Assembly: GCA_900316255.1 (NCBI GenBank)
Contig: ONCI01000038.1
Span: forward strand, 1-39,635
Reading direction: 5' to 3'
DNA: 39,635 nucleotides
Source of the DNA: an uncultured Eubacteriales bacterium
GTDB lineage: Bacteria > Bacillota > Clostridia > Oscillospirales > Oscillospiraceae
Shown here: in pieces, positions 19,832-24,693 of the stretch
Layout: every line of letters starts with the position of its first letter
How positions within the stretch are numbered: the first letter of the stretch is position 1
The notes under the pieces: generated by a model
Database searches by the model: none
Told to the model about the DNA's origin: nothing
The model's input: the letters and a program-made list of their open reading frames with translations, nothing else
Made by a program: the position numbers and the translations under genes

Positions 19832-20080
19832 ATGAACGACAAGGAGATCATGGAGGGCATCCTCCTCACCACCAAGGGGGTCTGCGACCTGTACCTGCAC
19901 GGCTCCGTGGAATCCGCCACACCCCAGGTCCACGAGGCCTTCAGCACCGCGCTGAACGACGCCATCTGCATGCAAAACGGCATATATTCCGCCATGCAGA
20001 GCCGCGGCTGGTATCCCGCCGACCAAGCCCAGCCCCAGAGCATCCAGCAGGTCCGGCAGAAGTACAGCGCCCAGGCGTAA
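19832..20080 (+). CDS. CotF-like spore coat protein
   Basis: An 82-residue all-helical protein starting MNDKEIMEGILLTTKG, with the RGWYPAD ending typical of small CotF-family coat proteins. AAGGAGG lies 7 bases before the ATG. It is the second gene of a two-gene set with the 57-residue protein. The terminator hairpin begins 13 bases after the stop and is the one duplicated around the element at 20125-20258. Confidence 0.75.
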   Translation: MNDKEIMEGILLTTKGVCDLYLHGSVESATPQVHEAFSTALNDAICMQNGIYSAMQSRGWYPADQAQPQSIQQVRQKYSAQA

Positions 20081-20093
20081 GGCTCTGCCGGGA

Positions 20094-20124
20094 AAGCCCG
20101 GGAAGAACGAATCTTCCCGGGCTT
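20094..20124 (+). terminator. Duplicated terminator hairpin, left copy (no T tract)
   Basis: Arms AAGCCCGGGAAGA and TCTTCCCGGGCTT with loop ACGAA. It is identical over 31 bases to 20259-20289, but is followed directly by CAAGCTG rather than by T residues, so it should terminate poorly. Confidence 0.6.
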
Positions 20125-20258
20125 CAAGCTGTCGACAAAGTGTCGACAGCTTGAAAAGCCAAAATGGAAACTTCCGAAAAAGTTCCCATTTTGGCATAGA
20201 TTGAACGTGAAGGGGGGCATACCCTCCCCCCTTCACAATCCCCCCATGCGTGTCCATG
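20125..20258 (+). mobile_element. 134-bp palindromic element, copy 1
   Basis: It holds three hairpins in series: AAGCTGTCGAC/GTCGACAGCTT; GCCAAAATGG/CCATTTTGGC (20158-20195) with an inner AACTT/AAGTT stem; and GTGAAGGGGGG/CCCCCCTTCAC (20207-20236). It ends near CATGCGTGTCCATG. A second copy of the same length and orientation is at 22591-22724, differing at only a few positions. It is non-coding. It lies exactly between two identical 31-bp copies of a terminator hairpin. The family is not one I recognise. Confidence 0.6.
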
Positions 20259-20300
20259 AAGCCCGGGAAGAACGAATCTTCCCGGGCTTTTCTCTTTCTT
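20259..20300 (+). terminator. Duplicated terminator hairpin, right copy with T tract
   Basis: Same 31-base hairpin as 20094-20124, here followed by TTCTCTTTCTTC. This copy is probably the working terminator of the spore coat operon. Confidence 0.75.
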
Positions 20301-20349
20301 CTATGGTTCCGGAGCAAAATCGGCTGCGTGCGCAGGCTGCTCCGCGCTC

Positions 20350-20378
20350 TTGACATCCTTCCGGAACTAACATACAAT
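20350..20378 (+). promoter_or_regulatory. Promoter of the ktrB-ktrA operon
   Basis: TTGACA (20350-20355), 17 bases, TACAAT (20373-20378). The predicted transcript starts near 20385, downstream of the in-frame TTG at 20384, which rules that codon out as start. Confidence 0.85.
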
Positions 20379-20431
20379 ACAATTTGAGAAAAGGGCGCAA
20401 ATCGGCGTGCCGTGCAGAGGGATGTGATGCC

Positions 20432-21844
20432 ATGAGACCAATCAGCGAGAACAGGCACTCGGAAGGCCTGACGCCTTCCAAAGGCCCCTTCCGTCTTTCG
20501 CCCGCTCATATCATCCCGCTCAGCTTTCTGCTCGCCATAGCGGTGGGAACGCTGCTGCTCCTGCTTCCCGCCTCCTCGGCGAAAGGAGTGGAGACGGATT
20601 TCCTCACAGCGCTCTTTACCTCCACGACCTCCGTCTGCGTGACAGGTCTGGTGGTGGTGGATACATACGCCCACTGGAGCCTGTTCGGCAAGATCGTCAT
20701 CCTGATTCTGATCCAGCTCGGCGGTCTTGGGATCGTTTCGGCCATCTCCATGGTGATGCTCTTCCTTCGCCGCCGCTTTTCCCTGCGCAGCAGGACGCTG
20801 CTCCTGGACGCGCTGAATCTGGACAGCCGTCTCGGCCTCCTGTCCTTCCTCGCAAGGATCTTCAAATGGACCTTTCTGGTCGAGTTCCTCGGAGCCGCTC
20901 TTTACTGCATCGAATTCATCCCCCGCTTCGGTGTGCTGCGGGGAATATGGATCTCCGTTTTCACCTCGATCTCCGCTTTCTGCAACGCCGGACTGGATAT
21001 TCTGGGGCCGGACAGTCTCAGCCGCTACGCAGGCTCTCCGCTGGTCATCTGGGTGACCATGGCGCTGATCGTATTGGGCGGTCTGGGCTATATCGTCTGG
21101 TTTGACATCGGCCGCTGCGTTCGTGACGGGATCCGCTTTCGGTTTTCTCCCCGGCAGGCCATCCGGCGGCTGGGTGCGCACACGCGGCTCGTCCTTCGTC
21201 TGACGGCAGGCCTGATCCTCCTGGGCGCCGTTCTGATCTTCCTGGCAGAGTCCCGGAACCCGGCGACTATGGGAAGCATGTCTCCGGGAGACAAGATCCT
21301 GAACTGCCTGTTCCAGTCTGTGACGTTCCGAACAGCAGGCTTTTACACCGTGCCGCAGGAAAATCTCAGCGACTTCTCCTGTCTGGTCGGCTATCTCTGG
21401 ATGTTTATCGGCGGCTCGCCCATCGGCACGGCGGGCGGCGTCAAAACCGTTACCATGTACCTGGTGTTTGCCAACGCCATCTCTTACGCGCACGCCAGAA
21501 AAGCCAGCGTATTGTTCCGCCGGAAGATCTCCGACGAGCTGATGCAGAAGGCCGCGGCTATCGTGATGATCAGCTTTCTCACGCTGCTCGTCTCTTCCCT
21601 GCTGCTGTTGGCTCTTGAGCCTGTTTCCATGACAGACGGGCTCTTCGAGGCGATCAGCGCGGTCGCCACCGTCGGTCTTTCCCGCGCTCTGACGCCGTCT
21701 CTCCACACCGCGGGGCGGATCATCATCATCGCAACGATGTATCTGGGGCGCATCGGCCCCATTTCCATGGCGCTGTTCCTGGCCCGGCCGAAACCGGAGA
21801 AAAACAGCATCTCGTACGCAGAGGGCAAGTTCTATGTGGGATAG
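20432..21844 (+). CDS. ktrB: Potassium uptake channel subunit KtrB/TrkH family
   Basis: A 470-residue membrane protein with the four-fold M1-P-M2 layout of the SKT superfamily. The four pore loops are visible as TTSVCVTGLVV, AFCNAGLDILG, TFRTAGFYTVP and ATVGLSRAL; each has the filter glycine. This pattern is closer to KtrB than to the TrkH at 23242-24693. The ATG at 20432 is chosen because AGAGGG lies 10 bases upstream and earlier in-frame codons lie at or before the predicted transcript start. ktrA follows after 12 bases. The operon is bracketed by two copies of the 134-bp element. Confidence 0.92.
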   Translation: MRPISENRHSEGLTPSKGPFRLSPAHIIPLSFLLAIAVGTLLLLLPASSAKGVETDFLTALFTSTTSVCVTGLVVVDTYAHWSLFGKIVILILIQLGGLGIVSAISMVMLFLRRRFSLRSRTLLLDALNLDSRLGLLSFLARIFKWTFLVEFLGAALYCIEFIPRFGVLRGIWISVFTSISAFCNAGLDILGPDSLSRYAGSPLVIWVTMALIVLGGLGYIVWFDIGRCVRDGIRFRFSPRQAIRRLGAHTRLVLRLTAGLILLGAVLIFLAESRNPATMGSMSPGDKILNCLFQSVTFRTAGFYTVPQENLSDFSCLVGYLWMFIGGSPIGTAGGVKTVTMYLVFANAISYAHARKASVLFRRKISDELMQKAAAIVMISFLTLLVSSLLLLALEPVSMTDGLFEAISAVATVGLSRALTPSLHTAGRIIIIATMYLGRIGPISMALFLARPKPEKNSISYAEGKFYVG

Positions 21845-21856
21845 GAAGGAAGGCTT

Positions 21857-22498
21857 ATGAGCAAATCGATCGCAGTTTTGGGGCTGGGCAAGTTCGGTCG
21901 CAGTCTCGCGGAAAACCTGTATTCTCTGGGCATGGATCTGATGGTCGTGGACCGGGACCCGGAAGTGGTTCGTGAATTTGCGTCCAAATCCACCATCGCC
22001 GTTTGTGCGAATCTGGAAAACGAGGACGAGATCCATGCTCTGGATCTGAAGCACATGGACATTGTAGTGGTCAGCATGGGCACTTCTCTTGCTCCCAGCG
22101 TCATGAGCGTTGTGGAGGCAAAGAAGCAGCAGGTTCCCTTCGTGATGGCCAAGGCGCTCTCCGATCAGATGGGCTTGATCCTGAAGATGGTCGGCGCGGA
22201 TCAGGTGATCAATCCGGAGGCGGAGAGCGGCATGCGCGTGGCCCGGGCTTTGGCCTCGCCCACGATCCTGGATCTGTTCGACGTGGGAGAAAACCTCTGC
22301 ATGATCGAGATGGTCCCGGACAAAAAGTGGATCGGGAAGACCCTGCTGGAGCTGAATCTGCGGCAGAAGCGCGGGATCAACGTGATCGCCATGAAGGAAC
22401 CCGGGACGACCTGGTCCTATCTGGATGCCCACTCTCCCATCAAGGACAATGCCACGCTGCTTGTGGTTCTGGAAAAAAAGCTCTTGAGTCAGTTCTAA
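21857..22498 (+). CDS. ktrA: Potassium channel regulatory subunit KtrA (RCK)
   Basis: A 213-residue cytoplasmic protein with RCK_N Rossmann domain (GLGKFGRSL at about 8-16; acidic MVVDRD at the end of beta-2) and RCK_C domain (about 135-213). KtrA rings bind adenine nucleotides and gate KtrB. The size matches KtrA rather than the double-length TrkA encoded at 24690-26054. It follows ktrB by 12 bases and is followed by the terminator/element structure at 22567-22785. Confidence 0.93.
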   Translation: MSKSIAVLGLGKFGRSLAENLYSLGMDLMVVDRDPEVVREFASKSTIAVCANLENEDEIHALDLKHMDIVVVSMGTSLAPSVMSVVEAKKQQVPFVMAKALSDQMGLILKMVGADQVINPEAESGMRVARALASPTILDLFDVGENLCMIEMVPDKKWIGKTLLELNLRQKRGINVIAMKEPGTTWSYLDAHSPIKDNATLLVVLEKKLLSQF

Positions 22499-22566
22499 GT
22501 GCCGGGGTCATGCCGCTCGTTTCTTGAGCGATCCCCACGCCGGAGTCAGCAGTCAAACGCAAAAAA

Positions 22567-22590
22567 AGATCAGGAAGAAATTCCTGATCT
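22567..22590 (+). terminator. Duplicated ktr terminator hairpin, left copy (no T tract)
   Basis: AGATCAGGAA and TTCCTGATCT around a short loop, preceded by a run of A but followed by CAAGCTG. Identical over 24 bases to 22754-22777. Confidence 0.6.
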
Positions 22591-22724
22591 CAAGCTGTCG
22601 ACAAAGTGTCGACAGCTTGAAAGCAAAAATGGGAACTTCCAAAAAAAGTTCCCATTTTTGCGTAGATTGGACGTGAAGGGGGGCATACCCTCCCCCCTTC
22701 ACAATCCCCCCATGCGTGTCTATG
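22591..22724 (+). mobile_element. 134-bp palindromic element, copy 2
   Basis: Same three hairpins and orientation as 20125-20258. The central one here is a perfect 16-bp stem, GCAAAAATGGGAACTT/AAGTTCCCATTTTTGC (22623-22661). After the shared 134 bases come 29 extra bases (22725-22753) not present in copy 1, then the second copy of the ktr terminator hairpin. Confidence 0.6.
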
Positions 22725-22753
22725 CTATGCCGCATTGGTTTGTCTACAGTCTG

Positions 22754-22785
22754 AGATCAGGAAGAAATTCCTGATCTTTTTTCTG
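22754..22785 (+). terminator. Duplicated ktr terminator hairpin, right copy with T tract
   Basis: The same 24-base hairpin as 22567-22590, followed by TTTTT and CTG. Likely the working terminator for ktrBA. Confidence 0.8.
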
Positions 22786-22846: not shown

Positions 22847-23245
22847 TTATCCCGCTGTTACCAGGTCGCGGATCTCTGCCAGACGCTTTTCGCCGATGCC
22901 GGGAACCTGCAGCAACTCCTCCACCTTTTGGAAGGGGCCATGCTCCTCCCGCCAGGCGACGATGGCGGTGGAAAGCTTCTCTCCGATGCCCGGCAGCAGC
23001 TGCAGCTGGGCCGCCGTGGCGGTATTCAGGTCCAGCTTCTCTCCGGGCAGCAGTTCCGTGGGGAGTCGGTCGGCGTCGTCGCCGCCCGTAAGCGTACGCT
23101 CGGGGATCGAGGCCGCAGCCTGGATCTCCGTCGGCGCGGCGGCGCCCGCTCCCGGCAGAAGCAGCAGGCTCAGTCCGAAGAGCAGGCAGAGCAGCGCCGC
23201 AAGGACCAGGGTCAGCCTGCCGGAGAGTCTCTTTTCCTCTTTCAT
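22847..23245 (-). CDS. ComEA-like helix-hairpin-helix protein
   Basis: The 132-residue protein has a basic N-terminus, one membrane helix (about 12-32), a linker, and a C-terminal pair of helix-hairpin-helix motifs: LNTATAAQLQLLPGIG (about 73-88) and VEELLQVPGIGEKRL (about 108-122). This is the ComEA layout of membrane-anchored DNA receptors used in DNA uptake. It lacks the extra N-terminal domain of the longer Bacillus ComEA. Its ATG overlaps the trkH stop (ATGA). No comEC is visible in the window, so a role in competence is not shown. Confidence 0.85.
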   Translation of the reverse strand: MKEEKRLSGRLTLVLAALLCLLFGLSLLLLPGAGAAAPTEIQAAASIPERTLTGGDDADRLPTELLPGEKLDLNTATAAQLQLLPGIGEKLSTAIVAWREEHGPFQKVEELLQVPGIGEKRLAEIRDLVTAG

Positions 23246-24693
23246 CGCTTCCAGGTCCGGGGGCTGAGGAGCACCAGGATGGGATAGATCTCCAATCTGC
23301 CCATGAGCATGGCCAGGCTCAGCAGCAGCTTGGTCCGGTCAGAGAAGAAAGCGAAGCTTCCCGCCGGTCCGATGGCCCGGGTCATGCCGGGGCCGATGTT
23401 CGACAGGCAGCTGAGGGCCGCGGTGAAGCTGGTGGGGATGTCCACCCCGTCCAGGCTCACCAGGAAGGAGAAGAGCAGCAGCAGGGCCATGTACAGCGTG
23501 AAAAAGGTCGTCGCGGCCTTCACAGTGCTGCGCTCCACCCGCTTGCCGTCCAGCTGGACCCGGACCACATTACGGGGCCGGATCATCTGCCGCAGTTCCG
23601 CCTGTGCGTTCTTGTTCAGGATGATCAAGCGGGAGATCTTGATGCCGCCGCCGGTACTGCCCGCGCAGCTTCCGCAGAGCATCAGGAGCATCAGGATCCA
23701 CTTGCAGTACTCCGGCCAGTCCTCGGTGAAATCCACCGTGCCGAAACCGGTGGTGCTCAGCAGGGTGGCCACGTTGAAGAAGGCCTGATGCAGCGTCTCT
23801 CCCAGGCTGCCGTAGAGCTTGTAGATCCCCAGGCTGATCAGGATGGCGCTGCCGAAGATGATGGCCAGGTACCAGCGCAGCTCCTCGCTCTTCAGCGCGT
23901 CCTTCCAGTGTCCGATGAGGATCAGGAAATAGAGGTTGAAGTTCACGCCAAAGAGGAGCATGAACACGGTGATGACCGTTTCGATATAGCTGCTGCCAAA
24001 GCCGCCGACGCTGGCGGGATTGGTGGAGAAGCCGCCGGTGCCCGCCGTGGAGAAGGAGTGGACCAGGGCCTCATAGAAGCTCATGCCGCCGCAGAGCAGA
24101 AGCAGGGTCTCCGTCAGGGTCAGGCCGATGTAGATGAGATAGAGCACCCGGGCGGTCTTTCTGGCACGGGGCACCAGCTTACCCACCGTGGGGCCGGGGA
24201 CCTCGGCCCGCATGATGTGCATGGAGTGCTCCCCGCTCATGGGCAGCACCGCCATCAAAAACACCAGCACGCCCATGCCGCCGATCCAGTGGTTGAAGAG
24301 CCGCCAGAACATGTCGCCCCGGTAGTTTTGGGCCATGCCGCCGATGTCCGTTACCACCGAGGCGCCGGTGGTGGAGAGGCCCGAGGCCGTTTCAAACACC
24401 GCGTCCACATAGCGGGGGATGCTGCCGGATAGGACAAAGGGCAGGGCTCCCAGCAGGGAGATGCCGATCCAGCCCAGGCCCACGATCACGAAGCCGTCCC
24501 GGGCCACCATAGAGTTGGTCCTGGGCTTCGGGATCAGAAGCAGGCCGCCCAGGGACCCGGTGATCCCGATGGCGATGATGAAATTCAGCACGTTTTCCCC
24601 GTACCAGAGTCCCGCCGCCAGGGGCAGCAGCATCAGCGCCGCGTAGATCAGCAGGATCCAGCCCAGGACACGGCAAATCATACGGTAGTTCAT
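23242..24693 (-). CDS. trkH: Potassium uptake protein TrkH
   Basis: The 483-residue channel subunit has about ten hydrophobic segments and four pore loops: SGLSTTGASVV (about 104-114), STAGTGGFST (about 219-228), LSTTGFGTV (about 313-321) and SNIGPG near residue 430. The loops with TTG resemble TrkH more than KtrB. It moves K+ inward together with TrkA, whose gene overlaps its start (ATGA). It is the middle gene of trkA-trkH-comEA-like, convergent with the ktrBA operon. Confidence 0.95.
   Translation of the reverse strand: MNYRMICRVLGWILLIYAALMLLPLAAGLWYGENVLNFIIAIGITGSLGGLLLIPKPRTNSMVARDGFVIVGLGWIGISLLGALPFVLSGSIPRYVDAVFETASGLSTTGASVVTDIGGMAQNYRGDMFWRLFNHWIGGMGVLVFLMAVLPMSGEHSMHIMRAEVPGPTVGKLVPRARKTARVLYLIYIGLTLTETLLLLCGGMSFYEALVHSFSTAGTGGFSTNPASVGGFGSSYIETVITVFMLLFGVNFNLYFLILIGHWKDALKSEELRWYLAIIFGSAILISLGIYKLYGSLGETLHQAFFNVATLLSTTGFGTVDFTEDWPEYCKWILMLLMLCGSCAGSTGGGIKISRLIILNKNAQAELRQMIRPRNVVRVQLDGKRVERSTVKAATTFFTLYMALLLLFSFLVSLDGVDIPTSFTAALSCLSNIGPGMTRAIGPAGSFAFFSDRTKLLLSLAMLMGRLEIYPILVLLSPRTWKR

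Follow-up and report, generated by a model that had tools for sequence, protein, structure and literature searches.

The 39,635-nucleotide stretch of DNA analysed here (the window) contains two copies of a short repeated element, each lying between two copies of a transcription terminator hairpin. Probably, these are copies of a non-autonomous element (MITE) mobilised in trans by an ISEfa7-like DDE transposase of the IS1182 family, which would target the extruded stem-loop of a terminator and duplicate it. We observed that the element shares its ends with autonomous elements, is present in many copies, is flanked in most of them by the same hairpin on both sides, and is missing from two orthologous sites, where a single hairpin is found. 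The strand chemistry and the extrusion of a cruciform are what we infer from these products. The features concerned are the following:

19832..20080, + strand: gene with a Coat F domain (PF07875), upstream of the target hairpin of copy 1
20094..20124, + strand: left 31-bp hairpin copy, terminator of the Coat F gene, with no T run after it (sequence comparison, folding)
20125..20258, + strand: MITE copy 1, 134 bp; left terminal repeat kept, about 29 bp on the right, including the right terminal repeat, missing
20259..20289, + strand: right 31-bp hairpin copy, followed by a T-rich tract (sequence comparison, folding)
21857..22498, + strand: KtrA/TrkA-type gene (PF02254), upstream of the target hairpin of copy 2
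22567..22590, + strand: left 24-bp hairpin copy, ktr terminator, with no T run after it (sequence comparison, folding)
22591..22753, + strand: MITE copy 2, full length, 163 bp; left end CAAGCTGTCGACAAAG, right end GGTTTGTCTACAGTCTG (comparison of copies)
22737..22753, + strand: right terminal inverted repeat of copy 2; its reverse complement begins CAGACTGTAGACAAAC and matches IS1182-family ends
22754..22777, + strand: right 24-bp hairpin copy, followed by five T (sequence comparison, folding)

A previous sequence-only reading of this DNA had described two near-identical elements bounded by exact direct repeats of two unrelated terminator hairpins, with a T tract kept on the right only, and all of this was borne out. 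The repeats of 31 bp (20094-20124 and 20259-20289, around the core 20125-20258) and 24 bp (22567-22590 and 22754-22777, around 22591-22753) were exact, and the two cores were 89% identical without gaps and 93% by BLAST. Both repeats folded as hairpins, with energies of −23.9 kcal/mol for copy 1 (none of 200 shuffled sequences folded equally well) and −13.9 kcal/mol for copy 2 (1 of 200). The T-rich tract was found behind the right hairpin only, at both copies. In the same region, two TrkH-type transporter genes (20384-21844, + strand, and 23242-24693, − strand) converge around a TrkA-type gene and a helix-hairpin-helix gene.

The reading had taken a 134-bp core as the unit, with 29 extra bases in copy 2. 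The bounds of the repeats were correct, but the size of the unit was not: comparison with other copies put the element proper at about 163 bp (22591-22753), the extra bases end in the right terminal repeat GGTTTGTCTACAGTCTG, and copy 1 is the truncated one. Full copies start with CAAGCTGTCGACAAAG and finish with GGTTTGTCTACAGTCTG, and the right end, reversed, resembles the left one, forming imperfect terminal inverted repeats. The genome from which the window comes (2.7 Mb, 136 contigs) contained 54 matching pieces, which resolved into 27 copies; this count omits a separate 32-bp piece on contig C66, and what is left over consists of parts of these copies or of their matches to themselves in inverted orientation. 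Searching this genome with the right end exposed another MITE family whose ends are similar; it is represented by 10 right ends and 9 left ends, most of which lie where the assembly breaks. The element was present in 16 of 36 other genomes of the same genus and in none of 23 genomes from other families of the order.

Two of the 27 copies of the first family had no right flank. Among the 25 others, 22 had the hairpin of their locus on each side, either intact or partly decayed (19 found by script and 3 by eye). The direct repeat detected by the script was at least 20 bp long in 18 copies and only 15 bp in L021, because the left hairpin is cut short there. The copies recognised by eye were L003, with an inverted loop, L013, whose right hairpin is shrunken, and L024, where the end of the element is deleted. 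There was no flanking duplication in the last three: none of it in L018 and L027, and only a left hairpin with a remnant at the right in L019. We read these three as decayed. The two hairpin copies of a locus also differed in places: in L003 the whole loop is inverted, and in L026 the stem carries two compensatory changes. Template switching within palindromes would leave an inverted loop or compensatory stem changes of this kind, and both loci would fit such a process. In the second family, all 19 ends abutted a hairpin by eye (the script put that of L050 further in), and 7 of the 9 left ends matched the hairpin of a right end, 5 of them having been joined across contig ends by that very match. 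Twenty-eight MITE loci were examined in relatives; 21 had an intact pair of ends and 11 of these 21 had an ungapped direct repeat. Similar but diverged hairpins were seen by eye on both sides of three loci (L068, L074, and L085).

Comparison with empty sites, proposed with the sequence-only reading, revealed one terminator and no element at two orthologous loci. At L286, which is syntenic with the locus of copy 1, the coat gene is followed by a single terminator and then by the ktr region; at L281, the orthologue of copy 2, there is likewise a single terminator. Among the matches listed, none of the copy 1 orthologues (L284-L294, n = 11) matched the element anywhere in its locus. The closest relative, L284, has different DNA downstream and is therefore not a clean empty site. 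The hairpins of the relatives are unlike those of the window, so these are orthologous sites rather than identical targets. At L280, the element had inserted independently, and the other way round, at the orthologous ktr terminator, with a hairpin on one side only. Hairpins on both flanks would also be seen if the element had entered pre-existing tandem terminators or a REP/BIME-like array. However, each site has its own hairpin sequence and both orthologous sites inspected have one terminator, and we consider this explanation extremely improbable.

Searches with the IS1182-type domain PF13751 showed that several species of the same genus carry long open frames. In the genome of the window, a 136-contig assembly, they found two IS1182-type remnants and no intact cognate transposase. 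A search of this genome with PF01609 yielded one weak match, under the family cutoff, which turned out to be an IS1182-type remnant. On contig C52, a decayed IS1182-type transposase (L105, 1097-1797) directly adjoins a MITE copy (L025). One element of the same genus (L117, 1577 bp, with an interrupted transposase frame) lies between identical 30-bp terminator hairpins, and L118 between two different ones; L119, whose transposase is cut by the start of its contig, has the end CAAATTGTCGACAAA. With the NCBIfam model for IS1182 (NF033551, cutoff 270 bits), L117 (296.7 bits) and L104 (361.8 bits) scored above the cutoff and the remnant L105 (112 bits) below it; this scoring covered these three loci.

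To judge from its sequence, the repeated element derives from insertion sequences of the IS1182 family and is non-autonomous (a MITE). It is short (163 bp), encodes no transposase, and occurs in 27 copies plus one 32-bp fragment in 2.7 Mb. It has terminal inverted repeats in common with autonomous elements of the family (CAGACTGTAGACAAAC at its right end, CAGACTGTAGACAAAG in Lachnospiraceae GAM79 and others); copy 1 of the window lacks the right terminal repeat. Finally, both kinds of element leave the same footprint, a duplicated hairpin. The idea of an undescribed miniature element seeking terminators was supported as to the hairpin targeting; the element is not an orphan. An element unrelated to known transposons, or a relative of group IIC introns, would agree with the small size and with the strong RNA fold (z −9.96). 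Group IIC introns also insert at terminators; they are RNA-based, larger, and not known to duplicate the hairpin. An Rfam search of the whole window at the gathering threshold gave no match, to intron RNA domains or otherwise; we rejected a group II intron or known RNA family on this basis. With ends matching those of IS1182-family elements that have the same footprint, such an origin appears very improbable.

For the autonomous elements, an alignment of four IS1182-type proteins served to scan the GTDB collection and gave 295 relatives. The best 80 of 295 were kept, several of them from the same genomes; 17 had no acceptable pair of ends and 7 lacked a flank, leaving 56 testable loci. Elements of the IS1182 family whose terminal repeats are identical or similar occurred in many Clostridia, some Bacilli, and one Fusobacterium. 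In 31 of the 56 loci, one or both ends had exactly the form CAGACTGTMGACAAA, the others having variants. In 9 loci from other IS1182-like subgroups scanned for ends, only L114 had a convincing pair, without duplication.

Direct repeats of 20-36 bp flanked 43 of the 56 loci; 37 were exact, 4 had one mismatch, and 2 had three. None of 8,329 random pairs of positions reached the repeat score threshold, although this control lacks the joint choice on terminal-repeat and direct-repeat score by which the end pairs of the elements had been picked. Hairpins extending from end to end were found in 38 of the 43 repeats, compared with 11 of 1,720 random windows. Duplication of a terminator hairpin on insertion, as the sequence-only reading had suggested, is hence supported at dozens of sites. 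Its expectation that every copy would be flanked by a duplicated local terminator held for most of the genome's own copies and failed for 3 of 25, as well as for 13 of the 56 IS loci. Nine of these 13 lay between two different hairpins (L140, L166, L188, which is the same GAM79 copy as L256, L189, L196, L197, L206, L211, and L218) and 4 showed neither pattern. The loci with two different hairpins could have arisen by attack on a pair of adjacent hairpins or by recombination between copies. We cannot fully explain these 13 loci.

For Lachnospiraceae GAM79 and Oscillibacter valericigenes, whose genomes are complete, we analysed all exact matches of one end pattern (53 ends). These two genomes contained 24 two-ended elements, 18 of them with the repeat, plus 5 single ends; many of these copies are also among the best 80 of 295. 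Five plasmid copies were inspected: those of Peribacillus and Cetobacterium had exact hairpin repeats of 24 and 22 bp, respectively, in those of Exiguobacterium and ISEfa7 the hairpins of the two sides differed, and the fifth extends beyond the end of its record. In GAM79, two elements of 50 and 58 bp (L249, 191-241, and L251, 124-182) consist of two facing ends only, with a hairpin directly at the left and no matching repeat at the right. A 10.4-kb GAM79 element (L313, 1663900-1674450) has intact 24-bp hairpin repeats, and its transposase gene is split by DNA coding for a relaxase, a phage replisome organiser, and a serine recombinase. We considered a cargo transposon and rejected it; this is an IS copy split by the relaxase and serine recombinase DNA.

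The proposed point of insertion, the junction of hairpin and T tract, proved only roughly correct: in the 43 IS sites, the repeat was centred on the hairpin dyad in 38 and started with A and ended with T in 33, and the IS copies were not clearly oriented with respect to the T tract. Counting inwards from the ends of the repeat, the first eight symmetric pairs were each complementary in 39 to 42 of the 43 sites, compared with 29, 25, 13, 18, and 15 for the first five pairs outside it. Repeat length correlated moderately with the length of the G-C bounded stem-loop (Spearman 0.50; n = 40, three rows without an anchor pair being dropped). The SD of the difference between the two (6.2) exceeded that of repeat length itself (3.8), and the stem extended past the repeat in 8 of 40 sites; the “foot” of the hairpin is therefore approximate. 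A rule equating the repeat with the G-C stem was discarded (stem plus one pair in 18 of 40, with a large spread). These data bear on the possibility that inverted repeats are read in ordinary duplex DNA by a symmetric protein assembly making a cut with a long stagger, with no cruciform or hairpin. Centring on the dyad is what a two-fold symmetric complex would give, the A...T boundaries suggest some sequence preference at the cut, and the length follows the stem only moderately. On the other hand, the hairpins have no evident sequence in common, and repeats of 20-36 bp in the IS set, and up to 37 bp in a complete genome, are not readily compatible with a fixed protein spacing. We regard duplex recognition as unlikely.

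We also considered a link of targeting with transcription termination or replication, in which the hairpin would be single-stranded where a polymerase pauses or on the lagging strand. Many of the targets resemble terminators, with a run of at least four T at the right or A at the left in 25 of the 43 IS sites, and in the genome's own MITEs the T tract lay mostly on one side (12 one way, 2 the other, and 2 equal, in 16 copies, i.e., the 19 script copies minus L007, L020, and L021). However, the IS copies had no clear orientation (19 pointed one way and 15 the other, with 9 equal), and the independent insertion at the orthologous ktr terminator was in reverse orientation. Such coupling is, in our opinion, quite improbable. 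A rule placing the T tract always on the right-hand side of the element is obeyed by the two copies in the window and fails in the IS set.

Stem-loop targeting by IS1182-family elements is already known. Review tables list IS1182 elements with a wide range of direct-repeat lengths and with palindromic targets, and ISfinder may already hold some like those described here. In our literature search outside ISfinder, duplication of a whole stem-loop by an insertion sequence was raised, in the text available, only by Wan 2017, hypothetically (PMC5678879): in their “pathway b,” 3' ends are joined to the 5' feet of the hairpin and gap filling duplicates the stem-loop. IS1272 and TnSha1 (IS1182 family, Staphylococcus) target stem-loops without sequence specificity, several of which were shown to be terminators (PMC4923244, PMC5678879), and IS1272 deletes or replaces its target with no target duplication (Furi 2016, PMC4923244; Wan 2017, PMC5678879). 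They share an IS1182-family DDE transposase and stem-loop targets with the elements studied here, most of which, in contrast, duplicate the stem-loop; at 43 of the 56 loci, we found duplication rather than the IS1272-type outcome. IS1182-related transposases are described as acting with or without target duplication or deletion, on sequence or on structure (PMC12056078). ISEfa7 (IS1182-like, Enterococcus faecium plasmids) is 48% identical at the protein level to a transposase from the genus of the window's genome, and the one copy inspected has the ends CAGACTGTAGACAAAG and hairpins near both flanks, as here, though its two hairpins differ. ISPse1 and ISCaa15 share the family name, but have 4-bp direct repeats in published tables (PMC3281130, PMC3196728), unlike the hairpin-length repeats reported here.

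In the mechanism that we favour, the transposase would recognise the extruded stem-loop of the terminator, as a cruciform or hairpin, and would join the two 3' ends of the element to the 5' foot of the hairpin, one on each strand. The hairpin of each strand would then become a single-stranded stretch to be filled in by gap repair, so that the target site duplication would be the stem-loop itself, with a length that depends on the site. As one hairpin copy keeps the T tract, the host gene should retain a complete terminator and insertion is likely nearly harmless. Targeting is apparently by DNA shape and not by sequence. We lean towards the view that a widespread IS1182-family clade uses a DNA hairpin as its target and the stem-loop as its target site duplication, the length being set by the target and not by the enzyme.

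As a rule, transposons leave short target duplications of constant length. The duplicated unit here is a hairpin of 20-40 bp, which suggests a DDE transposase guided by DNA shape, and suggests how such elements can spread while leaving genes and terminators intact. Dozens of naturally occurring target pairs are available for deriving the targeting rule and, as IS1272 deletes the same kind of target, one enzyme family offers two outcomes to compare. The loci flanked by two different hairpins would be deletions between neighbouring hairpins if the transposase can also attack both of these at their 5' feet. If a hairpin-duplicating clade does exist, it would be a natural confirmation of pathway b of Wan et al., and of a self-restoring way of life in transcription terminators.
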